Assembly: GCA_030620115.1 (NCBI GenBank)
Contig: JAUXFG010000035.1
Coordinates: 1 to 30,702 of the forward strand
Direction: 5' to 3'
DNA from: Candidatus Fermentibacterota bacterium
GTDB taxonomy: Bacteria > JAFGKV01
Length of the DNA stretch: 30,702 nt
Within the stretch, counting starts at the first letter, position 1. Every line of letters begins with the position of its first letter. This document shows, one piece after another, positions 1-13,294 of this stretch. The notes below the pieces were generated by a model. The model had not been told where the DNA came from. It saw only the letters and a program-made list of their open reading frames with translations, and made no database searches. A program made the translations under genes and the position numbers.

Positions 1-214
1 CCCCCTGGTCTTCCAACTCCACCACCACATGTTCCAGGTCATAGAAGTCGAGCATATCATTGATCGATTGGCGGATGAAGCCGCCGTACATGCTCTCGAC
101 CTTGCTTTTTATGTCGAGATGACGGCCGCCTTCGTCCGAGGAAGTAATGGTCACGAAACAGTCGGAGCGGACACGTGATCCCCTGGTCCCCGCGGATGCT
201 GATAGGGCGCTCAT
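1..214 (-). CDS. citD: Citrate lyase acyl carrier protein (gamma subunit), N-terminal part
   Basis: The gene enters from the window edge and its 3' end is missing; 71 codons are visible. The ATG at 214-212 overlaps the TGA of the LeuD-type gene (ATGA), so translation is probably coupled. The protein starts MSALSASAGTRGSRVRSDCF and continues with FVTITSSDEGG, then SKVESMYGG, then an LDFYDLEHVVVELEDQG strand. This matches my memory of CitD proteins: an AGT...S...VTI N-terminus carrying the serine for the phosphoribosyl-dephospho-CoA group, followed by a 'V.v.DkGA' segment. CitD is the acyl carrier of citrate lyase and also of citramalate lyase, which cleave citrate or citramalate to acetate plus oxaloacetate or pyruvate. 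The CitE and CitF partners would be expected beyond the left edge. Family assignment is good; citrate versus citramalate cannot be decided from this part. Confidence 0.8.
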   Translation of the reverse strand, partial: MSALSASAGTRGSRVRSDCFVTITSSDEGGRHLDIKSKVESMYGGFIRQSINDMLDFYDLEHVVVELEDQG

Positions 215-705
215 TCCCCCGCGCTCCGTGCTTCCAGGAGCTTGAATGTATACGGCAGAAGGCCGCCGGCATTCCTGATGGCCAGGATCCGTTCCGGCAG
301 CTCCGGGAACGAAAATGTGCGGTCCCCCACACGGATGGTTCCTCTCTCTGCTTCCAGCTCCACCGTGTCCCCCTCCTGATAAGCATCCACCGCCTTTGGA
401 CATTCCACAAGCAGAAGCCCTTGGTTTGTGGCCGCACGATAGAATATCCTGGAGAAACTCTTGGCCACCACGGCGGCGATACCCACTGCCTTGAGGCCAA
501 GCGCCGGTTGCTCCCGGGAGCTCCCGCAGCCGAAGTTCTTGCCAACAAAGAGGAAGTCACCTGCGTGCACGTTTTTGGCGAATTCCGGATCGAGATCTTC
601 CATAAGATGAGGGAGGATCTCATCTGTGGTGGCGCATGTATACGTGTACTTCCCGGGGAAGAGCATATCAGTATTGATGTCGTCGCCGTACTTCCATACA
701 CTCAT
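211..705 (-). CDS. LeuD-type hydro-lyase small subunit (swivel domain)
   Basis: This 164-residue protein is the small (swivel) subunit of a two-subunit aconitase-superfamily hydro-lyase. Its length fits the short archaeal/Thermotoga-type LeuD. It shows the DDINTD motif (residues 8-13) and the FGCGSSREQ active-site motif, whose second serine is the expected catalytic base. Substrate choice in this family is governed by the loop after the NTD motif. Isopropylmalate isomerases usually have YLRT there, whereas this protein has YTYT (residues 20-23). The substrate is therefore probably not isopropylmalate; mesaconate/citramalate or a dimethylmalate-like acid is possible. The start overlaps the stop of the LeuC-type gene and the stop overlaps the start of citD, both as ATGA, so the three are one translational unit. 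No leuA or leuB is nearby, which also argues against leucine synthesis. Confidence 0.88.
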   Translation of the reverse strand: MSVWKYGDDINTDMLFPGKYTYTCATTDEILPHLMEDLDPEFAKNVHAGDFLFVGKNFGCGSSREQPALGLKAVGIAAVVAKSFSRIFYRAATNQGLLLVECPKAVDAYQEGDTVELEAERGTIRVGDRTFSFPELPERILAIRNAGGLLPYTFKLLEARSAGE

Positions 706-1970
706 GATATCGCTCCCTGGCGCGGATCGGTAATGACTCCGGTGAGCGCGCTGGCAGCCACGGTGGCGGGGCTGGCCAGCACGATTTCAGCTTCCTTGCA
801 GCCCATGCGGCCCTTGAAGTTCCTGTTGGCAGTACTGATGCACCGTTCACCAGGAGCCAACACACCCTGATGCGCTCCCAAGCATGGGCCGCATCCCACT
901 GGCAGGAGGACGGCGCCCGCCGCGACCAAATCCGAGGCAATACCCGCGGCCATGGCCTCCTGAAGGATTTCGTTGGAGGCAGGGAGCACCAGCAGCCGAA
1001 CTCCCGGGGCGACCTTCTTCCCCTTCAGGATCTCGGCCGCGGCCCGGAGGTCGGAGAGGCGCCCGTTGGTGCAAGTGCCGATAAGACACTGATGGACCTG
1101 CTGACCCACTGCTTCACCCACGGGATGGACATTGTCGACCTTGTGGGGAAGGGCCACCACGGGTTCGATCTCCGAGAGGTCGACCTCGAGCTCCTTCTCG
1201 TACGTGGCCGCCACATCAGCCCAGATCGGCTCATAGGAATCCGGCCCGAAGCCGCGGCCCGAGAGCCATTCACGGGTGAGCCGGTCCACGGGGAAGACAA
1301 AGATCTTCGCACCCATCTCCACACCCATGTTGGCGATGGTCATGCGGTCCTCCATGGAGAGCGTGGCCACCGCTCCGTGGAATTCTACGGCACGGTAATC
1401 CGCCCCGTCGGCCCGCATCCTGCCGATAAGCGTCAAGATAAGGTCTTTTGCGCTGGCCGGGGATTGGAGCTTCCCCTTGAGCGTGATCTTGTAGCTCTTG
1501 GGAACTTTGAACCACGTTTCACCCGTGAGAAGCAACGCCGCGGCCTCGGTCCGGTCGATGCCTGTAGCGAAGGCGCCAAGGGCGCCATATGAGCAGGTAT
1601 GGGAGTCCGAGCCCACCAGGAGCTTCCCCGGGAGCGCAAATCCTTCTTCCATGACCACCTGGTGACAGATGCCGCGGCCCACATCGAAGAAGTGCGGGAT
1701 GTTGTGACGCTGCACATAGGCTCTGATCTTCTTGTGGTTCGCGGCCGACTTCTCGTTGGCCGCGGGAACGACGTGGTCGAGCACGATGATATGCATGTCG
1801 GGCCTCTCCACGCCATACTGTTCGAGCTGCGCCGCCACCTTGGTGATGATGGCGGCGGTATTGTCGTGGGTGAGCATGTAGTCCGGCTTGGCGGTCACAA
1901 TCTCGCCCGGCGCTACATGCTCTCGTCGTGCCTTGTGAGCGAGGATTTTCTCCGCGAATGTATTGGGCAT
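702..1970 (-). CDS. LeuC-type hydro-lyase large subunit (4Fe-4S)
   Basis: A 422-residue large subunit of the LeuC/HacA type, binding a 4Fe-4S cluster and catalysing dehydration/rehydration of a hydroxy-acid. Visible motifs are DSHTC (residues 122-126) and the three cluster cysteines: C300 in GTCTNGR, and C360 and C363 in GCGPCLGAHQG. The length is that of the short, archaeal-like family (about 420 residues), not the 466-residue E. coli LeuC, and fits the short partner encoded next. The start ATG (1970-1968) follows the stop of the aconitase gene by 15 bases, so the two are co-transcribed. Position in front of citD suggests a catabolic acid pathway, for example mesaconate to citramalate, rather than leucine synthesis. 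Known LeuC-family annotation would be '3-isopropylmalate dehydratase large subunit'; specificity is inferred. Confidence 0.9.
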   Translation of the reverse strand: MPNTFAEKILAHKARREHVAPGEIVTAKPDYMLTHDNTAAIITKVAAQLEQYGVERPDMHIIVLDHVVPAANEKSAANHKKIRAYVQRHNIPHFFDVGRGICHQVVMEEGFALPGKLLVGSDSHTCSYGALGAFATGIDRTEAAALLLTGETWFKVPKSYKITLKGKLQSPASAKDLILTLIGRMRADGADYRAVEFHGAVATLSMEDRMTIANMGVEMGAKIFVFPVDRLTREWLSGRGFGPDSYEPIWADVAATYEKELEVDLSEIEPVVALPHKVDNVHPVGEAVGQQVHQCLIGTCTNGRLSDLRAAAEILKGKKVAPGVRLLVLPASNEILQEAMAAGIASDLVAAGAVLLPVGCGPCLGAHQGVLAPGERCISTANRNFKGRMGCKEAEIVLASPATVAASALTGVITDPRQGAIS

Positions 1971-1985
1971 AATGTGAACCCCTGC

Positions 1986-3794
1986 CTAAAGCAGTCCACC
2001 TCGAAGGTAGATCTCTTTCTGGACATCGGTGAACGGTGTGATCCGCCAGATCTTGTTATCTGACAGCCGCGTGATCTCGCCTTTCAATAGGTCGACCTTG
2101 ATGGTCTCACCATCCTGAAGGCCGCCCTGGAGCAGGTCGCCCACGAGTATGGGGAACCCGGCATTTATGGCGTTCCTTTCGTAGATGGCGCCAAATGAGG
2201 TGGCGATGAGGATACTGACCCCAAGGCTCTTGAAGCAGTCTACCGCTTGCTGTCGTGAGCTGCCGCAGCCGAAATTCCCCCCAGTAATAACGATATCGCC
2301 CGGCGCGACCTTATGGGGGAAGTCCGCGTAGCCGGGGAGATTGCCGAAAGTATGGCCGCCCATCTCGGCGATGTCGGTGATGGCCAGGTGCCGGTTGTGA
2401 AAAATCATGTCGGTATCGATGTTGTCCTTGGGCACCAACAGGGCCCGGCCTTGGAGCACCAAAGGCTTCTCTTCGGCGGCCAATGCTGTTTTCGGCGGCG
2501 AAGCGGGTTCCTCAACTACCTCGCGCGTATGACAAATGGTGAGAGGACCTTGGAGGAGCCTCTGTGCCGAGGTGATACAGCCGGCCACGGCGCTGGCGGC
2601 CACTGTGGCCGGGCTTGCGAGGTAGACCTCGCCTTTCCCCTGCTTGCCGGGGAAGTTACGGTTGCCGGTACTGATGGTGATCTCACCCGGGCCGTTCTGG
2701 CCGATCTGCCCGGCAGCGCAGCCTGCGCACCCGGCATTGCCCACCAATGCACCAGCCTTCTTGAAGGTCTCGATGATTCCTTCTTCCATACATCTGTTCC
2801 AGATCTCGTCGGTGGCGGGAACGATCTTCAGAACAATACCCGATGCCGCTTTTCGTTCCTTCAAGATCGCGGCGGCGGCGCGCATATCCTCCATACGGCC
2901 GTTCGTGCACGAACCGATAAATCCCGAGTCGATGGGCTGACCCTCGACCTCGTCAATGATCACCGTGTCGTCGGGGTGCCCGGGGCGGGCCGCCATGGGG
3001 CCAAGGCCCTGTACATCGATTTCCCACACCTTGGCGTATGTGGCATCAGAGTCTGGGTATACGCCTTCAAAGGGAGTTCCCGCGGCCTTGGACATATACT
3101 CCAATACGTCATGGTTCGGGGGGATGAGCACGATGATGGCGCCCATCTCGGTGCCCATTGATGCCACGGTGATGCGTCCATCCAGCGAGAGGCTGTCGAT
3201 TACCTCACCGTAGAACTCCGCGGCACATCCCAGAAGGCCGCTTGCCCCGGTCTCCTGCAGGATCCTCAACACAAGATCCTTGGGGGTTGCCCATGGCCCC
3301 GGTGTGCCGGTGAACACCATCTTTACCGTAGGGGGCACCTTGAACCAAACCGCGCCATTGGCCCAGGCGTACGCGATATCGCGATCTCCCATGCCCTGGC
3401 CGAATGCGCCGATGGAACCGAGGATGTTTGCGTGCGAGTCGGTGGATATGAAAGTGCCACCGGGCCCCACCATGCCCTTGTCCATGGCCAGATGCGTGCC
3501 GATCCCGGCGTTGATATCGTAAAGGTTGACTCCTGTCTGCCGCGCGAAGATCCGGCAGATCTGCTGATTGGTGGCGTACTTCTGATCGGATCCGGTGGGA
3601 TTGCAGTCAAAGGTGAAGAACGTCTTGCCGGGATTCTCGATGCTGAGCCCGTGCTCTCTCAGGTTCTTGACGACATTCGCCCCGCCGAAGTCCCTGGCGA
3701 CCCTGGCATCAATGGCGACATCGACGATGTCGCCGGGTTTGACTTCCCGTCCTGCGTGAAATCCTAGGATCTTCTCGACGATCGTATTCCCCAT
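1986..3794 (-). CDS. Aconitate hydratase, single-chain LeuC-LeuD fusion type
   Basis: This 602-residue protein joins a large-subunit region (about 1-410) and a swivel region (about 440-602) in one chain, as in the Aquifex-type or 'putative' aconitases of about 640 residues. The first region has DSH at 119-121 and cluster cysteines C296 (SCTNGR), C356 and C359 (GCAGCAAGQ). The swivel has NIDTDMI (458-464) and NFGCGSSRQQ (507-516). The reaction is citrate/isocitrate interconversion via cis-aconitate, in the cytoplasm. A start at 3824 is possible, but the ATG at 3794-3792 has AGGAGG seven bases upstream and gives the usual MGNTIVEKIL beginning, so I chose it. It is the first gene of the operon that continues into the LeuC/LeuD-type genes and citD. 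Related homoaconitase or methyl-substituted substrates cannot be excluded. Confidence 0.9.
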   Translation of the reverse strand: MGNTIVEKILGFHAGREVKPGDIVDVAIDARVARDFGGANVVKNLREHGLSIENPGKTFFTFDCNPTGSDQKYATNQQICRIFARQTGVNLYDINAGIGTHLAMDKGMVGPGGTFISTDSHANILGSIGAFGQGMGDRDIAYAWANGAVWFKVPPTVKMVFTGTPGPWATPKDLVLRILQETGASGLLGCAAEFYGEVIDSLSLDGRITVASMGTEMGAIIVLIPPNHDVLEYMSKAAGTPFEGVYPDSDATYAKVWEIDVQGLGPMAARPGHPDDTVIIDEVEGQPIDSGFIGSCTNGRMEDMRAAAAILKERKAASGIVLKIVPATDEIWNRCMEEGIIETFKKAGALVGNAGCAGCAAGQIGQNGPGEITISTGNRNFPGKQGKGEVYLASPATVAASAVAGCITSAQRLLQGPLTICHTREVVEEPASPPKTALAAEEKPLVLQGRALLVPKDNIDTDMIFHNRHLAITDIAEMGGHTFGNLPGYADFPHKVAPGDIVITGGNFGCGSSRQQAVDCFKSLGVSILIATSFGAIYERNAINAGFPILVGDLLQGGLQDGETIKVDLLKGEITRLSDNKIWRITPFTDVQKEIYLRGGLL

Positions 3795-4099: not shown

Positions 4100-6676
4100 C
4101 TAAGCCCGATCAGGTGGGATGCAGGGATTTCCGGGGGGTGCGCGGAGGATCTGGGTTACCATGCGGAGCAGCTCTGCCATGCGGTACGGTTTCTGGAGGA
4201 ATCGATAGCCCTTTTCCTTGATCTCGGACACCTTCGAGCGCTCGTCCGCATACCCGCTACTCAGGAGCACCCGGAGGTCGGGTCTCCGTGCCACAAGGTC
4301 GTCAACGAGCTCCACACCACTCTTCCCCGGCATCACGACGTCGCTGATCACGAGATGGAAATCACCCTTTTCCTGCTCGAATGCATGGATTGCTTCCTCT
4401 GCATTGCCGGCCGCGACCACGGTATAGCCGTTTTCGCGGAGAATCTCGGTGATGGATTCCCGAACCACATCCTCGTCCTCCACGACCAGGATGCGCTGCC
4501 CGCTTCCTTTTTCGAATTCGATGATCGTTGGTTCGTCAGGCGCAGCATCCCCATGGTCCCCCGCGGCGGAGAGGTAGACCTCGAAGGTTGAACCCTTCCC
4601 TTGTTCGCTGTATACGCTGATCCACCCGGCGTGCTGTCTCACCACGCCGTAGACCACCGAAAGGCCGAGCCCTGTCCCTTCACCGGCGCCTTTTGTAGTA
4701 TAGAAGGGCTCGAAGATATGCGTGAGTACGTCGGTAGCCATTCCGACACCGGAGTCCTGGATCACCAAGCGGACAAATCGGCCGGGGCGAGCATCGGGGA
4801 TGTGGCGGCAATCGGTTTCGCTGAGTACGATGTTTTCAGTCCTCAAGTATACCGTACCGCCTTGGGGCATGGCATCTCGCGCGTTGACCACAAGATTCAT
4901 GATGACCTGCTCAATGGTTCCTTTGTCGGCACGGACCGACCAGAGAGAGGGGTCGAGTTCTACATCGATCATCACGTCTTCACCGATGAGGCGATTCAGC
5001 ATCCTGAGCATGCTTCCCACCACCATGTTGAGCCCAATGGTGGTGAATTCCATGGGCTGTTTCCGGCTCAAAAGGAGCAGTTGGCGGGTGAGGCTCGAGG
5101 CCAGCGTTGAGGCATGATGGATTCCCCTGAGATCGCGGTGCAAGGGTTGTGAGTCGTCCACCTTGAAAAGCGCCATGTCGACATAGCCACGGATGGCGGT
5201 GAGCAGGTTATTGAAGTCATGCGCGACTCCCCCGGCCAAGCGGCCGATGGCCTCGAGTTTCTGTGACTGCAGGAGCAAGGCCTGCATCTGTTCCTTCTCC
5301 TCTTCCGCGCATTTCAGCTCGGTGATGTCGCGTACCGTGGCAATGATGCCCACAAAGCTTCCCTCATCCGTGATGAGGGAGGAGTGGAGCAAGGCGGGAA
5401 ACGAGCTGCCGTCGCGGCGAAGTTGGAGGAGTTCTCCGAAGAATTCGCCCGTTTCCATGACCTCCCGATTGGCAGCTTCAGCAAGAGGCAACTGCTCTGC
5501 GGCATACAGAGTGGAGAAATGCGTACCCACAAGCTCGCCTGGGGCAGAGCCAAACATCCGTGCGAATGCGTTGTTCACGAACACATAGTGCCCATCTATA
5601 TCGAGCACGGCCATGCCCTCCGTACTCTGTTCCACGGCAGAGGAGAGCAGGCGCAACTGCTCCTGGCTTTCAAGAAGCTCCCTGGTTCGGGCGCCCACCT
5701 CGTGATGCAGGATCCGATTCCAGCGGCCCGCAATGGTGAGAGCCGCCAGCACGGAGCCCGCCATGGCGGTTATTCCAACCAACATGGCCAGTTTCCATGC
5801 ATTGGAGGCGTCGGTGATGGCTTCGCAAGTGGCGGCTGACACCTCCAGATCCAATGCCTTGGCCAGATGAAGAGAACCAAGATGACCGGTGGCAGCGATA
5901 AAGCCCATCAATACCACCCCACCGCCGATGATGGCGGAGGAGAAGCGCTTCAGCGATACCTGTGCACGGGGGGGGACGATGAAGAAGCGCGCTTTGACGC
6001 GCTCCATGAGCCGCCCAAAGAGCAGGATCACAGGCGCGTTCAGAATCACTGCCTGCAAGAATGCCCCCACCCACCAGCCCTGCCAGATGGCGAAGGTCTT
6101 GAGAGCCGAGAGATCGCGAGTGTGGCTCCATATGAAAGATCCGGTGGAGCCGGCATAGGCGCCGATGAGGGAGACTCCGCAGAAAAAGAGGATCCTCCCC
6201 AGGCTGCGAAGATCGGGAGAGATAGGAATACTCCAGTATGCCAGCGCGTACACCACCAACCCCAGCGGGTCCGCCAAAGCAAACAGCAGGGCCCAGTGAA
6301 ACGGCATCCCCGAGTAGAGCGATCCGATGAAGGTTGCCAGGTACGCGGGGATGAATGCCCATTCAAACCCAAGCCATATTGCGAGCCAGGTACAGATCAC
6401 CAACGGCGGATAGATGGTGAGGAAGAAGTGGATGGGGCCCGCGTGGATAGGTATGCCGCTCCAGTCGTATGCCACCACGGCTACTGCTGAGCCGACACAG
6501 ATGGCGGTCAGCATCAACCAGATCAATAGGAGCCAGATGACACGGCGGTCCTTGAAGCCGTGCTGTCGTATCAGGTATACTAAGGGAAGGGGGCGCCAAA
6601 GAGACCATGTATCAGAAGGAGAGCCGGAGCGCTCTTGCGCCTTCATGGGACGGTGGCTTTCCCGGGATGTTGACAT
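4100..6676 (-). CDS. Membrane hybrid sensor histidine kinase with PAS and receiver domains
   Basis: An 858-residue hybrid kinase. The N-terminal half (about 45-315) has roughly eight hydrophobic segments and resembles MASE1-type integral sensor regions. It is followed by a PAS domain (about 345-453), a HisKA domain with the phospho-accepting His in GGVAHDFNN (about 486), a HATPase domain (NLVVNARDAM, DSGVGM, GTGLGLS) and a C-terminal receiver (about 728-845) with the acceptor Asp in ISDVVMPG (about 779) and the conserved Lys in LQKPY. It should sense a membrane or intracellular cue and phosphorylate its own receiver, then pass phosphate to a partner encoded elsewhere. The ATG at 6676-6674 follows GGAG by seven bases; an in-frame ATG at 6757 lacks such a site. 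No response regulator lies beside it. The stop overlaps a short GC-rich inverted repeat. Confidence 0.9.
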   Translation of the reverse strand: MSTSRESHRPMKAQERSGSPSDTWSLWRPLPLVYLIRQHGFKDRRVIWLLLIWLMLTAICVGSAVAVVAYDWSGIPIHAGPIHFFLTIYPPLVICTWLAIWLGFEWAFIPAYLATFIGSLYSGMPFHWALLFALADPLGLVVYALAYWSIPISPDLRSLGRILFFCGVSLIGAYAGSTGSFIWSHTRDLSALKTFAIWQGWWVGAFLQAVILNAPVILLFGRLMERVKARFFIVPPRAQVSLKRFSSAIIGGGVVLMGFIAATGHLGSLHLAKALDLEVSAATCEAITDASNAWKLAMLVGITAMAGSVLAALTIAGRWNRILHHEVGARTRELLESQEQLRLLSSAVEQSTEGMAVLDIDGHYVFVNNAFARMFGSAPGELVGTHFSTLYAAEQLPLAEAANREVMETGEFFGELLQLRRDGSSFPALLHSSLITDEGSFVGIIATVRDITELKCAEEEKEQMQALLLQSQKLEAIGRLAGGVAHDFNNLLTAIRGYVDMALFKVDDSQPLHRDLRGIHHASTLASSLTRQLLLLSRKQPMEFTTIGLNMVVGSMLRMLNRLIGEDVMIDVELDPSLWSVRADKGTIEQVIMNLVVNARDAMPQGGTVYLRTENIVLSETDCRHIPDARPGRFVRLVIQDSGVGMATDVLTHIFEPFYTTKGAGEGTGLGLSVVYGVVRQHAGWISVYSEQGKGSTFEVYLSAAGDHGDAAPDEPTIIEFEKGSGQRILVVEDEDVVRESITEILRENGYTVVAAGNAEEAIHAFEQEKGDFHLVISDVVMPGKSGVELVDDLVARRPDLRVLLSSGYADERSKVSEIKEKGYRFLQKPYRMAELLRMVTQILRAPPGNPCIPPDRA

Positions 6677-6809
6677 GGTCACTCTCCGACGGATCGTCTT
6701 GTCTCTTGTACCATGCCGGCCATGCCACATACCCTGCACTGGAGCAATATGCGCCATGAAATGCCCGAGGCAAGTCCTTGCCGCGTTTTCTCGGAAGGGG
6801 GACTGAAGG

Positions 6810-7095: not shown

Positions 7096-8337
7096 CTATT
7101 CCTGCCTGAGTGCATCAACCGGGTGCAGCCGTGCGGCTTTGAGTGCGGGGAAAAGACCGGCGGTGACGCCCACCGCTATAGAGAAAAGGAAGGCCATGGG
7201 AAGTGACCAACCGATGACACGGGCGGGAATGGGTGTGGCGCCGCGGACCAGGGCCGCCAAGCCCGCACCGAGTAGGAGCCCGAGGACTCCTCCCACGGAA
7301 GACAACCCCGCCGCCTCGGAGATGAACTGGAGCATGAGATGCATCCGGCACGCCCCCACGGCCTTGCGAAGACCGATCTCCCGGGTTCGTTCGGTCACCG
7401 TTACCAGCATGATGTTCATGATGCCGATCCCACCAACGAGAAGGCTGATTCCCGCCACGCCGATCATCACTGCATAGATCGCCCCGGTCATCTGCTCATA
7501 GCTGGTAATCATGGCTTCTTGGGTGATGATGAAGAAGTTGTTCTCATCGGCGGTTCGTAGTCCCCGTCTTCGTCTGAGAATCCCTATGGCATCATCGATT
7601 GCCGCGGGAACGGCGTTGGCATCATTGGCCTGGACGATGAGGACAGCGTGGAATCCGCGGCCGAATGCTTTGCGGTAACTCCCGTGGGGAATCAGCACAA
7701 AACTGTCGAGATCTTGCCCGAACATTTTGCCACGCTCTGCCATGACGCCAACGACGCGGAAACGGTGACGATCGATGGAAAGGAAGCGGTTCAGGGGATC
7801 GAGGCCCGGGAAAAGCTCCTTCGCCACGGAGGGCCCGATGATGCAGACATTCTTCCGCCGCACATTCTCCTGATCGGTGAATACCCGTCCCCGGGCCAAC
7901 TCCATCTGGGTGATTTCGGCGAAGGTCGAGGAGAGCCCCTTCACTGGTACATTGTCGGCCTCCAGCCTACCTGCGTGTATCTCGTGTACAGTAGTGACGC
8001 TGGCGGAAGCTTCCTTGATCCAGGAGGAGCTTCGACTCAGCTCCATGGCATCATCTTCCGTGATGTCGGGATAGCGGCGCTGCTTCAGGTACTCTGCCGT
8101 GGAAAGATTCCCCATGGCGAATTTCGAGATCAGGAAGCTCCCGGTTCCCATCTCTTCGATCATCCCTGCCACGCTGGCATTCATGCCCTGCACCACCGCC
8201 AGCATACCCACCACGGTAGTCACTCCCACAATGACGCCGAGAATGGTGAGCCCGGAACGCAGCTTATTCGCCAGCACACCTGCCAGGGCCATACGGAGGC
8301 TCTCTGCCACGATGGTGACTTTTCCGGTACTACTCAT
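7096..8337 (-). CDS. ABC transporter permease, MacB/FtsX type (second permease)
   Basis: 413 residues with the layout of MacB-type permeases: one membrane helix near residues 22-50 (NKLRSGLTILGVIVGVTTVV), a large periplasmic MacB_PCD domain (about 55-280), and three C-terminal helices with the conserved stretch VGGIGIMNIMLVTVTERTRE, then GLRKAVGA. No ATPase domain is fused to it; the separate ATPase is encoded at 10111-10794. With the adaptor and TolC-like protein upstream, it should form a tripartite efflux pump moving a substrate from inner membrane or periplasm to the outside. The start ATG (8337-8335) has no good ribosome site because repeat sequence lies directly upstream; a start a few codons inside (GTG or ATG near residues 7-16) is possible. 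It is last in the operon and is separated from the other permease by 372 bases of repeats. Confidence 0.9.
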   Translation of the reverse strand: MSSTGKVTIVAESLRMALAGVLANKLRSGLTILGVIVGVTTVVGMLAVVQGMNASVAGMIEEMGTGSFLISKFAMGNLSTAEYLKQRRYPDITEDDAMELSRSSSWIKEASASVTTVHEIHAGRLEADNVPVKGLSSTFAEITQMELARGRVFTDQENVRRKNVCIIGPSVAKELFPGLDPLNRFLSIDRHRFRVVGVMAERGKMFGQDLDSFVLIPHGSYRKAFGRGFHAVLIVQANDANAVPAAIDDAIGILRRRRGLRTADENNFFIITQEAMITSYEQMTGAIYAVMIGVAGISLLVGGIGIMNIMLVTVTERTREIGLRKAVGACRMHLMLQFISEAAGLSSVGGVLGLLLGAGLAALVRGATPIPARVIGWSLPMAFLFSIAVGVTAGLFPALKAARLHPVDALRQE

Positions 8338-8342
8338 ATGTG

Positions 8343-8380
8343 TAGAGGTTCAAGGTTCAGAGGTTCTGGGTTCAGGGTTG
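8343..8380. repeat. GGTTCAG-word array, left arm
   Basis: A short array of variants of AGGTTCAG in about 8-base steps. The inverted counterpart is at 8669-8708, so the two bracket the 372-base spacer between the permease genes. No gene is visible in the spacer. Confidence 0.7.
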
Positions 8381-8483
8381 GCTTTCTTCCGTTGCCTTGG
8401 CGAGTACCTCTCGGGCCAACAACCATGCCTGAATGGCAACCAATCCACCGCTTCTCTGGTGGTGAGAATTGAGAAGGCTCTAT

Positions 8484-8513
8484 GCTTCTTCCGAGGCTTC
8501 GCTCGGAAGAAGC
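8484..8513. other. Perfect 12-bp hairpin between permease genes
   Basis: GCTTCTTCCGAG, loop GCTTCG, then CTCGGAAGAAGC. The stem is GC-rich enough to form in RNA on the minus-strand transcript between the two permeases. No T-run follows, so a role in mRNA stability or partial attenuation is as likely as termination. Confidence 0.6.
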
Positions 8514-8520
8514 AACGCCG

Positions 8521-8604
8521 AACATCGAACATCCAACGCTCAACGTCGAAGTAGGGCTCTTCGTTCGATGTTCGATGTTGCGCGTTGAATGTTGGACGTT
8601 TTGC
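8521..8604. repeat. TTCGATG-type heptad array, inverted pair
   Basis: The left half is a run of AACATCGAACATCCAACGCT-like words and the right half is the inverted run TTCGATGTTCGATGTTGCGC followed by TTGAATG and TTGGACG. The units are near 7-base repeats of TTSRAYG. Related arrays lie at 25791-25827 and 27578-27610. The two halves could form a long imperfect hairpin. Confidence 0.75.
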
Positions 8605-8668
8605 AGGATTATGTGCATTGAATCTGGGCTAAACGCTTGAAATCTATCCTTCGGATTTCCGTGGAATC

Positions 8669-8708
8669 TCTGAACCTCTGAACCCGCGAACCCCTGAACC
8701 CCTGAACG
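8669..8708. repeat. CTGAACC octad array, right arm
   Basis: Five units of about eight bases (TCTGAACC, TCTGAACC, CGCGAACC, CCTGAACC, CCTGAACG) end two bases before the stop codon of the upstream permease gene. It is the inverted partner of the array at 8343-8380. Confidence 0.8.
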
Positions 8709-8709
8709 G

Positions 8710-9933
8710 TTACTCATATCGCAGCGCATCGATGGGATTCAGCTTTGCCGCTCGGATTGCGGGAAATGCGCCGAAGATCAAGCCCACGGCCGATGAGAAA
8801 CCGAGCCCAAGGAGCACCGTGCCCAGCGAGGCTGCAGCCGGTACGGGGCTTATTCTCGCCGTCAGGAAGGCGAGCCCGAGGCCCAGGGCAACCCCCAGAA
8901 CCCCCCCGGCAAGACAGAGAAGGACAGCCTCGGTAAGGAACTGATCTCGGATCTCCCGCCTCGTGGCTCCCAATGCCTTGCGAATGCCGATCTCCCTGGT
9001 TCGTTCGGTCACCGATACCAGCATGATGTTCATGATGCCGATGCCGCCCACCAGGAGGGAGAGGCCGCCAATGCCCACCATGGCGGCGAAGACGATGCCG
9101 GTGAACTGCTTGAACTGGACCATGAGCTGCTGGGCACTATTCAGGGCGAAGTCGTCCGGTTCCCCCGGGGCCACACGGCGCCGCTTCCGGAGGACCAGGC
9201 GAATCTCCTCCTTGGCGACATCCACGTGGGCCTTGTCAATGGGAAGCACGGAGATGTTCACGGATCGGTACTTCCCGAATTTCTTCTCAAAGGTCGTTGC
9301 CGGGATGGCGATGAGCTCATCCTGGTTTTCGCCGAAGATGGCGCCCTTCTTCGCCAGGATGCCCACCACATCATATGCCCGATTACCAATACGGATCTTC
9401 TTGTACAGGGGTTGCTCATGCCCGAAAAGTTGTTGGGCGATATCATGGCCAAGCACCGCGACATGCCGGCTCCGTGATACATCCGTGTCCGTAAGGAATC
9501 GCCCCGCGCCGGGCGGGTAGTTCTCGATAACAACGAATGGATTTGTGGTGCCGACGATTTGAATCGCGGGACGAGAGACCGACCGGTAGCGTACCTGCTG
9601 GCGCGTATAGAGCGTAGGGGCCACCGTCGCCACAGAGGGACACAGACGGGCGATGGCATCCGTATCCTCCATAGTGAGCCGTTTCCTGGGTTTTCTTCTC
9701 CTTGGCCCAATGTGCATCCCCCACTCATAGAGGTTCACGCTTATCATGTCGGCGCCTAAGGATTTGAACTGGGTTTCCACCGTTCGATTGAGGCCGTTAA
9801 CCAGAGATTGCAGGGCAATAACCGTGGTGATACCGATGATGATTCCAAGGATAGTGAGAATGGAACGCGTTCGGTGTTGATGAAGAGAGTCGTACGCGCT
9901 CCGGAATCGTTCCGGCACCGCCCTAACCCACAC
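8710..9933 (-). CDS. ABC transporter permease, MacB/FtsX type (first permease)
   Basis: 407 residues, homologous in plan to the permease at 7096-8337: an N-terminal helix (HQHRTRSILTILGIIIGITT), a periplasmic domain and three C-terminal helices with VGGIGIMNIMLVSVTERTRE. The pair would make a heterodimeric membrane core. The first codon taken here is GTG at 9933-9931, which lies inside the terminal repeat of element R2; the residues MWVR come from repeat sequence. A GTG five codons further in (9918-9916) is an equally possible start. The natural leader has evidently been replaced by the repeat, which separates this gene from its ATPase by 177 bases in an otherwise overlapping operon. The stop TAA directly follows the octad array. 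Confidence 0.9.
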   Translation of the reverse strand: MWVRAVPERFRSAYDSLHQHRTRSILTILGIIIGITTVIALQSLVNGLNRTVETQFKSLGADMISVNLYEWGMHIGPRRRKPRKRLTMEDTDAIARLCPSVATVAPTLYTRQQVRYRSVSRPAIQIVGTTNPFVVIENYPPGAGRFLTDTDVSRSRHVAVLGHDIAQQLFGHEQPLYKKIRIGNRAYDVVGILAKKGAIFGENQDELIAIPATTFEKKFGKYRSVNISVLPIDKAHVDVAKEEIRLVLRKRRRVAPGEPDDFALNSAQQLMVQFKQFTGIVFAAMVGIGGLSLLVGGIGIMNIMLVSVTERTREIGIRKALGATRREIRDQFLTEAVLLCLAGGVLGVALGLGLAFLTARISPVPAAASLGTVLLGLGFSSAVGLIFGAFPAIRAAKLNPIDALRYE

Positions 9934-10105
9934 TTCTCACCGGCTTTCGTCGCGAGACGGGAGAAATGGTTGTGGCTGCAAGGCTTGCGACCGAGGCTCC
10001 CGCAGGCGTATCCTCTGCGATACGGTGAGGAAGCCGACGGAGCGTAACGCAGCAGACAGAGCCATATCGGCTGTCGTAGCAGGAAGCTGGTGAGAAGTGC
10101 GGGTT
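9925..10105. repeat. Dispersed TIR element, copy R2 (full length, 181 bp)
   Basis: Ends are AACCCACACTTCTCACC and GGTGAGAAGTGCGGGTT. The left arm contains GGCTTTCGTCGCGAGACGGG and the centre GTATCCTCTGCGATACGG. The right arm contains CGTAACGCAGCAGACAGAGC and TAGCAGGAAGCTGG. The copy at 19645-19833 is the same sequence in the opposite orientation with scattered changes. No open reading frame of note is inside it, so it is non-autonomous. It fills the space between the ABC ATPase and the first permease. Confidence 0.9.
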
Positions 10106-10110
10106 GAAGA

Positions 10111-10794
10111 TCATGCGGTATCCTTTGCCACAGTCCCGTCCACGAGCTGAACCACCCGATTTGCTCGATCAGCTACCGCAGGATCATGGGTAACCGTGAT
10201 CAGGGTGTTTCCCGCTTCGTTGAGCTCCTGGAGGAGCGCCATGATCTCCTTGCCCGTTTTTGTATCGAGATTCCCCGTTGGTTCGTCGGCGAGGATCACA
10301 CTGGGCTCGTTGACCAGGGCACGGGCCACGGCCACCCGCTGTCTCTGGCCCCCCGAGAGCTGGGCGGGCTTGTGGTGCATACGATCCCCCAAGCCGACCA
10401 GCTCCAAAACCTGGGCGGCCCTTCTCTTGCGCTGGCGAGCCGGCATGCCGGCATAGATCAGCGGCACCTCCACATTGGATAGTGCCGTGGCGCGCGGAAG
10501 CAGATTGAACGTCTGGAATACAAAACCAATCTTCCCATTTCGAATGGCGGCAAGCTGATCATCGTTGAGATGAGAGACGTCCTTCTCCTCCAGCATGTAG
10601 CTGCCGTTGGTCGGCACATCGAGGCAACCGATGATGTTCATCAGTGTGGACTTCCCCGAGCCGGAAGGCCCCATGATTGCCACGTAGTCCTTGTAGTCGA
10701 TCTGGAGGCTCAGGCCGCGCAGTGCGTGCACTGGTATCTGGCCTACCATATAGGTCTTTTCAATATCCTTCAGATTTATGAGCGCGTCGCTCAT
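10111..10794 (-). CDS. ABC transporter ATP-binding protein, MacB/LolD type
   Basis: 227 residues, the normal length for a stand-alone MacB/LolD-like ATPase. Walker A is GPSGSGKST (about 42-50), the Q-loop is in FQTFNLLPR, the signature is [15 protein letters not shown], and Walker B is [12 protein letters not shown], followed by the switch His in VTHD. It hydrolyses ATP on the cytoplasmic face to power the two permeases. Its ATG (10794-10792) overlaps the TGA of the adaptor gene (ATGA), showing translational coupling. The TGA stop lies just beyond repeat R2. Confidence 0.95.
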
Positions 10795-12002
10795 GGTTCC
10801 TCCGAATGCTCGATCTTGACCTTTGTGCCGGCCCGGAGATCTCGCAGCGTCTCAAAGGGGCCGATGATGACCTCTTGGTCCTCTTCGAGGCCCTTCAAGA
10901 CCTCGACATAGTGCTCCCCGGAGATGCCGGTATGCAGGGGCCTGAAGCTGCTCTTGTGTTCCACCACCACATAGACCCCTTCTTTCTCTGGGGGCCTCCT
11001 GTCAGGCTTGATTTCAGGCTCCTCTTCGTCCTTCTCCTTGCGGGCCTCCCGCTCCGGATCCCTGACCACGAGGCTCGAGATGGGAACCGACAGCACGCTC
11101 TCCTTCCTAGCGGTTTCGATTCGTACCGTGGCAGTCATCCCCGGCCGAACCCCCCCGAGCAGCTCCTCCAGGACCACTACCACCGGGAAGTTGGTCACTT
11201 CCTGCTGGGTACCTTTGTTCTTTACCTCGGCGCTGGAACTCACTTCCACCACCGTGGCCAGGAGAGAAGTATCTGGAAACGCGTCGAGCTCGACCTTTGC
11301 CGGTTGGCCAATCACGATGTCCACGACCTCGGTCTCGTCGATCTCCACTTCCGCCTCCATGCGATCCATAGCAGCAATCTCCAGGAGCACCGTACCAGGA
11401 TTGTTCATAGTCCCGGTGACGGCCATCTCGCCCTCTTCCACGTTCACCTTGGAGACAGTACCATTGATGGGAGAATCAAAGGTGGTCCTTGCAAGCTGAT
11501 CTTGAGCGCCTTGGAGCACGGCTTCTGCCCGTTCCACACTTCTCCGGGCCGCCATCTCCTGGGCCTGGATAACATCGACTTCTGTTTCCTGGCGTTCCAG
11601 CGCTTCCTGGGATACGAGTTCCTTGGCCGCCAGGGCCTTCATGCGACGGAGCTCATCGCGTGCCTGGCGGAGCTGGGCTTGATACTGGCCCCGCGTGGCC
11701 AACGCCTGCCGGTGCTCCGCTTCGGCACGACGAACCAGGGCATGGTACTGGACGGGGTCCAACTGGAGCAGGAACTGCCCTTTCTCTACTCTGTCCCCTT
11801 CGTGTACCGCGATCTCCATGACCCGGCCCATGGCATCCGCGCTGATCTTGACCATGGTGGATGGACGTACTCGTGCAGGGCCTGACACCTCTGCCACGAG
11901 CTCTCTCTTTGCGGATTTTTCGACACGTATGGTCATTTTCTTGCCCCCACCGCACCCGGAGAGAAGGAGCACCGAACCGAGAAGAAGCGCTGCCGCTCTC
12001 AC
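10791..12002 (-). CDS. Periplasmic adaptor (MacA/HlyD-type membrane fusion) lipoprotein
   Basis: 403 residues starting with a lipoprotein signal ([17 protein letters not shown]; Cys17 is the predicted lipid site). A barrel-sandwich half-motif ([20 protein letters not shown]) and [18 protein letters not shown] are followed by an alpha-helical hairpin rich in Arg/Glu/Gln (about 75-165) and the second half-motif ([19 protein letters not shown]). Beta-barrel and membrane-proximal domains follow. Residues about 310-345 form an unusually charged insert ([20 protein letters not shown]). The protein should bridge the inner-membrane ABC permeases and the TolC-like channel. GTG start at 12002-12000 overlaps the TGA of the TolC-like gene (GTGA); the stop overlaps the ATPase start. 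Confidence 0.92.
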
Positions 12003-13294
12003 CAGAGATCTCCCAACTCGCCGGTGGCCTCATCCAAGGTGGATCGTGCCACGTTCACCGAGTTCTTGGCTTCCACTTGGTCCACTTTCGCCCGTTGCAG
12101 CGCGAGCTTGGAGTCGGAAAGCTCCAGGAACGAGAGCGAGCCCATGCCATAACGTTCCTCGGCCAACCGGTACTCCTCATTTGCGAGCGCCAATGCGGCA
12201 TCCGCAGTCTCTGATTGCGCCTTGGCTTCCAGAAGCCGCCGATGACTGTCCTCCACGGTATGGCGTTGCGAGAGCTGCATCTCACGCAGGGTGAGCTCCG
12301 CATCTCTTGCCGACGCCTTTGCCCGCTGTACCGCCCCTTTGGTCTCCAGTCCATCGAAAAGGTACATGCTGAGGGTTAAGCCGACAGACCACGAGTCTGC
12401 ATCCTTGAACCGGTCGACATCATCGGGAATCTCCACATCGCTCCAGCCGTAGCTCGCGCTCCCAGTGAGGGACGGATAGCGCCCCGCAGCCGCCATGGTC
12501 ACGCTCTTGTGCGTACTGGTGAGCTGTTCGACATAGGCCAGAATCGACGGATGTTGCTGCCCCTTGGCCATACACTCCTCTAGTGGCGGCACGTCGATTC
12601 CTTGTTCCGCGGGAGGAACCAAGATGTATTCAGTTCCCGGCTCCTTGCCCAAAAGCAGCAGCAAGGAACTCTTGGCCGTGGCTAGTTCATTCTCCTGGCG
12701 CATTTTGGCCAGCATGTCACGGTGGAGCTCGACTTTGGCCTTGAGCACTTCCTGCCTCGAGGCGGCGCCCATTCGATGCCGTTCTTCCGCCCGTTCCAAC
12801 TGCCGCCTCGCCAAGAGCTCCGCCTCCCTTGCCACGTCAGCCAAGGCCTCTGCCCGGAGTACGCTGTAGAAGGTTTCCGCCACATTGAGAGCAAGCTGTG
12901 CCTTGGTGGCCTGACAGCTCTGCTCTGCGGCCCGTAGCGACGCCTTGGCCGAGGAGAGTTGCGCCCAGGAAGAGCCCCCATTGAAGAAGGTTTGGTTGAG
13001 CCTCAGTCCCGCGGAGTAACGATTCTTGGATGTCCTGACCGAATCCTGGACGAAGCTCATCTGCTCACTGGAGTATCGTGTGGCGTCGGTATAGGCGGAG
13101 ATGTGGGGGAGGATGCCACTCCATGAGGATGTGCATGATCCCCTGGATGAGGCCACATCGGCATCAGCCTTCTTCAGGGTAAGGCTGTGAGCCTTGGTGA
13201 TCTGTAGACAGTGCTCCAGGGTCCATGTCTCCTGCCCCAGGGCGGGAAAGGCCAACAAGACCAGAATACAACACACGGTTGCTCTAGCGATCAT
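11999..13294 (-). CDS. TolC-family outer membrane efflux protein
   Basis: 431 residues with an N-terminal signal peptide (MIARATVCCILVLLAFPALG, cleavage near QETW). The body shows the two long, Ala/Glu/Leu-rich coiled-coil repeats of OEP proteins, each with an alpha-helical barrel and a beta region (YSAGLRLNQTFFNGGSSWAQ in the first, SVGLTLSMYLFDGLETKGAV in the second). It should be the trimeric outer-membrane channel of this pump, which implies a cell with an outer membrane. The ATG at 13294-13292 follows AGGAGGTGGACTC, a strong ribosome site. The start lies 11 bases inside the end of the MBL gene and the stop overlaps the adaptor start. Confidence 0.92.
   Translation of the reverse strand: MIARATVCCILVLLAFPALGQETWTLEHCLQITKAHSLTLKKADADVASSRGSCTSSWSGILPHISAYTDATRYSSEQMSFVQDSVRTSKNRYSAGLRLNQTFFNGGSSWAQLSSAKASLRAAEQSCQATKAQLALNVAETFYSVLRAEALADVAREAELLARRQLERAEERHRMGAASRQEVLKAKVELHRDMLAKMRQENELATAKSSLLLLLGKEPGTEYILVPPAEQGIDVPPLEECMAKGQQHPSILAYVEQLTSTHKSVTMAAAGRYPSLTGSASYGWSDVEIPDDVDRFKDADSWSVGLTLSMYLFDGLETKGAVQRAKASARDAELTLREMQLSQRHTVEDSHRRLLEAKAQSETADAALALANEEYRLAEERYGMGSLSFLELSDSKLALQRAKVDQVEAKNSVNVARSTLDEATGELGDLW

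Follow-up and report, generated by a model that had tools for sequence, protein, structure and literature searches.

The window analysed here, a stretch of 30,702 nucleotides from a Candidatus Fermentibacterota bacterium, is an entire contig (C294) of a 4.1 Mb genome that is 98.3% complete, and its nearest relatives are Candidatus Eisenbacteria MAGs (LeuC identity 73-74%). An operon of four genes, all on the minus strand, occupies one end of it. The most upstream gene encodes a 602-aa aconitase-superfamily protein, hereafter AC600 (1986..3794; ATG at 3794, stop at 1988-1986, AGGAGG immediately 5' of the ATG), whose large and small domains, matching PF00330 and PF00694, lie in one fused chain. 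After a gap of 15 bases (1971-1985) follow a LeuC-like large subunit of 422 aa (702..1970) and a LeuD-like small subunit of 164 aa (211..705), both assigned by family matches, and the N-terminal 71 aa of a CitD domain of citrate lyase (1..214); ATGA overlaps join LeuC to LeuD and LeuD to CitD. These four genes, the gap and the two overlaps had been described in a preceding sequence-only reading and were all confirmed in the sequence. The two PF00330 matches in the window (5.6e-81 and 2.9e-105) are far beyond chance, as are those to TIGR02087 (2.6e-49) and to the citrate lyase gamma model PRK13253 (2e-10). A membrane sensor histidine kinase that carries PAS and receiver domains is encoded immediately upstream (4100-6757), on the operon's strand. 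Two MacB-like permeases, an ABC ATPase, a membrane-fusion protein and a TolC-like protein, encoded on the minus strand at 7096-13294, resemble a complete tripartite efflux system.

The CitD gene is incomplete because the contig ends within it, and relatives indicate how it may continue. CitD-like stretches 33-51% identical to that of the window occur at more than 20 relatives' loci in proteins of ~405 aa, encoded beside LeuD and/or CitF. At one such locus (L087) CitD (residues 15-92) is fused to CitE (114-395) and followed by CitF, and 30 CitD-CitE fusions were gathered in all. The gene at the contig end is thus most likely the start of such a fusion. The sequence-only reading had placed a lyase carrier protein here: a citrate-lyase-type gene is indeed present, but a stand-alone CitD was rejected, since the orthologs are CitD-CitE fusions. 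No further CitE or CitF turned up anywhere in the genome assembly, from which the remainder of the fusion and CitF are most likely missing. The complete CitD, CitE and CitF set is present in relatives, where the CitF orthologs are ~36-44% identical to E. coli CitF and both CitE and CitF score under the NCBI equivalog cut-offs. The CitD and CitE domains are common to these proteins and to E. coli citrate lyase CitDEF (b0615-b0617), from which the system described here differs in the fusion of CitD to CitE and in the isocitrate dehydrogenase (IDH) and aconitase genes alongside. A further difference concerns a serine that does not vary among the fused CitD domains (L087:11756-12979 and others) and aligns one residue after Ser14 of E. 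coli CitD, the prosthetic-group site; given this offset, the attachment site may be shifted in the fused proteins.

Eighty loci with LeuC relatives (58-74% identity) were fetched, and as they were picked by LeuC similarity, counts of AC600-LeuC adjacency among them are inflated. The fullest gene order, IDH, HD-domain protein, AC600, LeuC, LeuD, CitDE, CitF, is conserved as an operon across many uncultured phyla. A citrate-cleavage gene lies nearby at 45 of the 69 distinct fused AC600 loci, and at least one of the IDH, HD, LeuC and cleavage genes at 64 of them. Three cleavage modules stand beside the cluster: CitDE with CitF; citryl-CoA lyase (CCL) with SucC/SucD-like proteins, or ATP-citrate-lyase-like (ACL-like) proteins; and CitF with CCL. 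Thus CCL with SucC-like and SucD-like proteins replaces citrate lyase at L074, longer CCL/ACL-like proteins of ~715 aa do so at L188 and L256, and the order in Thermoplasmata is HD, CitF, CCL, AC600, with LeuCD encoded elsewhere. Because three different citrate-cleaving systems keep the same company, the substrate is very likely citrate and not citramalate. The IDH gene is preceded by KorAB (2-oxoacid:ferredoxin oxidoreductase) at L042, L088 and L100, while the L101 and L060 clusters include a malic enzyme/Pta protein.

The window's own genome encodes only two PF00330 proteins, both in this operon. No HMGL-like (PF00682) protein was found in the whole genome, and it therefore has no LeuA and no homocitrate, citramalate or Re-citrate synthase; a search for citrate synthase of either the Si- or the Re-type was likewise negative. 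There is no LeuB besides one IDH-like protein, the single member of the IDH/IPMDH family in the genome, which matches the operon IDH at 71%, lies on contig C229 and is followed by an HD gene (L121:2934-3497), in the order seen in relatives. The lack of leuA and leuB noted in the sequence-only reading thus extends to the whole genome. The methylaspartate ammonia-lyase it had suggested looking for was not found there; a 441-aa frame gave a partial cross-hit of enolase-family type that scored 20.7 bits, below the cut-off of 27, and relatives yielded short partial matches only. An IDH-HD pair and two PF00330 proteins in a genome without HMGL-like protein, citrate synthase or methylaspartate ammonia-lyase would fit part of a TCA cycle that runs reductively or reversibly and uses citrate lyase.

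When AC600 and LeuC were compared column by column, invariant differences appeared at catalytic positions. In porcine mAcn numbering, which was confirmed via a PRK07229 aconitase aligned to 1aco, Q72, H101, H147, N258 and R452 correspond in the AC600 of the window to R34, C64, T100, S212 and K384, so that the plain aconitase of the sequence-only reading no longer describes this protein. In a residue survey of 90 AC600-clade sequences, fused and split, from Bacteria and Archaea, Q72 is replaced by R, Q148 by H, N258 by S and R452 by K, H101 by C or T (Y in two) and H147 by T or S (Q in two). The same sequences keep D100, D165, S166, H167, E262, N446 and R447, and the [4Fe-4S] cysteines (C296, C356 and C359 in the window) with the single exception of a C358S; S512-S513-R514, which holds the base serine and arginine of domain 4, is invariant or nearly so. 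The canonical set was kept in 90 of 90 LeuC-clade sequences, with His at Q72 as in other LeuC, and in all six PRK07229 controls. AC600 therefore has in common with mitochondrial and PRK07229-type aconitases the superfamily, the Fe-S cysteines, the base serine and the Arg447 equivalents, and departs from them at Q72, H101, H147, N258 and R452. According to PMC8184944, the active-site residues do not vary among aconitases other than AcnX, and an R-to-K exchange in aconitases, at a different position, can alter substrate use (PMC3556520).

In a quick tree the AC600, LeuC-clade and PRK07229 groups formed separate clades with SH-aLRT support of 100, 98 and 100. The structure predicted for AC600 (mean pLDDT 79.6, low near the cluster-binding loops) matches the large and small subunits of the M. 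jannaschii isomerase. By sequence and fold, the solved structures closest to AC600 are the same as those closest to LeuCD, namely the M. jannaschii isopropylmalate/citramalate isomerase (4kp1/4nqy with 3vba) and homoaconitase (4kp2 with 2pkp), from which AC600 differs in being fused and in lacking the catalytic histidines. Identity with aconitase X was rejected in view of the PF00330/PF00694 layout, the lack of any match between the AcnX profile and AC600 at E 0.01, and a structural match to AcnX that is weak in the predicted fold. The fusion is not universal, since a Chloroflexota locus (L115:8176-11779) has distinct genes for the large and small parts of AC600 adjoining LeuC and LeuD, together with SucC/SucD-like, CCL, HD and IDH genes. 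The loci of split AC600 relatives (L149, L194-L208) have no metabolic neighbours bearing on substrate, and a search of plasmids for named cultured carriers of AC600 found none, the best match being 37%. Judged from these alignments, AC600 is a separate, widespread aconitase relative in which the catalytic histidines are replaced. The clade has apparently not been reported before: the literature searched, which covered few subscription journals, contained no description of the clade or of the operon and no assay of any AC600- or LeuCD-clade enzyme.

The LeuC-like subunit, on the other hand, holds the canonical aconitase-family catalytic residues (H35, D65-H66, H103, N214 and R388). The recognition loop of the LeuD-like subunit, which we take to be the specificity-setting site as in methanogen enzymes, reads GKYTYTC and is near-invariant in orthologs, its first T being V, C or I in a few; its YTYT stands against YLVY in the M. 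jannaschii isopropylmalate isomerase (3vba) and YLRT in HacB (2pkp). The closest family matches of the pair are the LeuC/HacA and LeuD/DmdB subfamilies. The LeuC and LeuD equivalog cut-offs were not reached, and scores against the HacA and HacB equivalogs were 429/550 and 134/230 bits. We consider LeuCD to be probably an aconitase-type enzyme of this citrate route.

Textbook aconitase is a single enzyme whose nearly invariant active site serves both half-reactions. Our preferred, still tentative, explanation of the whole is that the operon would supply the isocitrate, citrate and citrate-cleavage steps at one end of a TCA cycle that lacks citrate synthase and runs reductively or reversibly, two aconitase-family enzymes splitting the reaction between them. 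The evidence is drawn from sequence throughout: gene content, co-occurrence, clade structure and residue replacement are observed, and the enzyme roles are deduced from them. Isocitrate dehydrogenase would link 2-oxoglutarate to isocitrate in either direction, the aconitase-family pair would interconvert isocitrate, cis-aconitate and citrate, and CitDE with CitF would split citrate into acetate and oxaloacetate, or form citrate in reverse. LeuCD, in which the whole canonical active site is kept, would act between isocitrate and cis-aconitate, leaving the step between cis-aconitate and citrate to AC600, whose active site is remodelled. Such a division, possible if rather doubtful, is suggested by co-occurrence, by split operons and by a fungal precedent. 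In nine genomes, the window's and eight others, including one that is 100% complete (G353), AC600 and one LeuC-type protein are the sole PF00330 members. AC600 is present in 26 of 33 LeuC-clade genomes, most of them picked for having no AC600 next to LeuC, and was not found in G001, G002, G399 and G416. Conversely, in an AC600-based sample, a LeuC-clade partner is encoded in nine of 12 other close AC600 genomes; canonical-length aconitases take its place in G358 and G132, and G269 was placed in neither class. Where the operon is split (G353, L185/L258; L044; G398, L252/L037), AC600 accompanies CitDE-CitF and LeuCD accompanies IDH, and in Thermoplasmata AC600 lies behind CitF-CCL, apart from LeuCD. 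There are exceptions: LeuCD adjoins CitDE-CitF at L060 with AC600 elsewhere, and at L196 LeuC lies with IDH and cleavage genes, apart from AC600. Several Thermoplasmata encode a third aconitase of canonical length (31% identical), so that AC600 and LeuCD are not their only option. In the fungal lysine pathway, and in Thermus, two aconitase-family enzymes likewise share the one isomerisation of homocitrate, with virtually all canonical residues kept (PMC3556520); here the substrate would be citrate and one of the enzymes is remodelled. In its strongest form, the proposal would make AC600 a new superfamily enzyme class that works without the His101/His147 acid-base set on citrate/cis-aconitate only, with LeuCD acting on cis-aconitate/isocitrate only, a two-enzyme aconitase of citrate-cleaving bacteria and archaea; so far-reaching a version we regard as unlikely.

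The most serious competitor, less likely than the preferred explanation, is that LeuCD alone is a complete aconitase and AC600 has some other citrate-linked role, as a sensor of citrate or iron state, a partner subunit without activity of its own, or a hydratase of another substrate. LeuCD does keep every mapped canonical catalytic residue, AC600 lacks His101, the residue that protonates the hydroxyl (PMC8184944), and G001 and G002 have LeuCD without AC600 or citrate synthase. However, the AC600 replacements are near-invariant (n=90) and the protein has retained its Fe-S cysteines, base serine and substrate arginines, a pattern that speaks for selection on a catalytic function, and AC600 accompanies citrate-cleavage genes even where LeuCD is elsewhere. 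The converse, that AC600 is a complete aconitase with new catalytic residues and LeuCD acts on, for example, a methylated or longer tricarboxylate, is improbable. It draws on IDH-HD-AC600-CitDE-CitF or HD-AC600-CitDE-CitF operons that lack LeuCD (L184, L186, L211), but such genomes encode, at another locus, a LeuCD whose loop is the same (L259, L262) or canonical-length aconitases (G358), and five canonical active-site residues are lost in AC600.

Two readings that take LeuCD out of citrate metabolism fare much worse. The route put forward in the sequence-only reading would make LeuCD an iron-sulfur mesaconase that supplies a citramalate lyase while glutamate is fermented through the methylaspartate pathway. 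In its favour, CitDEF-type lyases include citramalate lyases, and the CitE and CitF orthologs score under the citrate-lyase equivalog cut-offs. The missing methylaspartate ammonia-lyase, with only short partial matches in relatives, and the partnership with IDH and three citrate-cleaving systems make that route very improbable. Slighter still is the chance, suggested by its best family matches, that LeuCD works in amino-acid synthesis as an isopropylmalate isomerase or homoaconitase and only happens to be encoded in this operon. A role in leucine biosynthesis was rejected because the genome has neither LeuA nor a separate LeuB, and one in homoaconitate biosynthesis because it has no homocitrate synthase and the HacA and HacB scores fall below the equivalog cut-offs, as do those for LeuC and LeuD; the loop, too, differs from those of both enzymes. 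Annotating the pair as leucine-biosynthesis genes would be a mistake, as the sequence-only reading had anticipated, and genomes with the LeuCD cluster are at risk of it. The role of the cluster is most likely the conversion of isocitrate to citrate and the splitting of citrate, rather than glutamate fermentation or leucine synthesis.

A histidine-replaced clade found across bacterial and archaeal phyla near citrate-cleavage and IDH genes would be either another means of performing the aconitase chemistry or a new reaction of central carbon metabolism. Citrate-cleaving TCA variants that use an ordinary citrate lyase are, moreover, probably undercounted, a survey having stated that regular citrate lyase was left out (PMC9802188).

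Two further features of the neighbourhoods deserve mention. In Thermoplasmata (L241, L242, L244, L247-L251) CitF stands immediately before citryl-CoA lyase, and both CitD and CitE are absent; citrate may be cleaved there by a CoA-transferase acting with a lyase. Most operons with IDH, AC600 or cleavage genes, in Bacteria and Thermoplasmata alike, also encode a small HD-domain protein of ~190 aa (PF01966, with no NCBIfam name), exemplified by L087:7015-7602.
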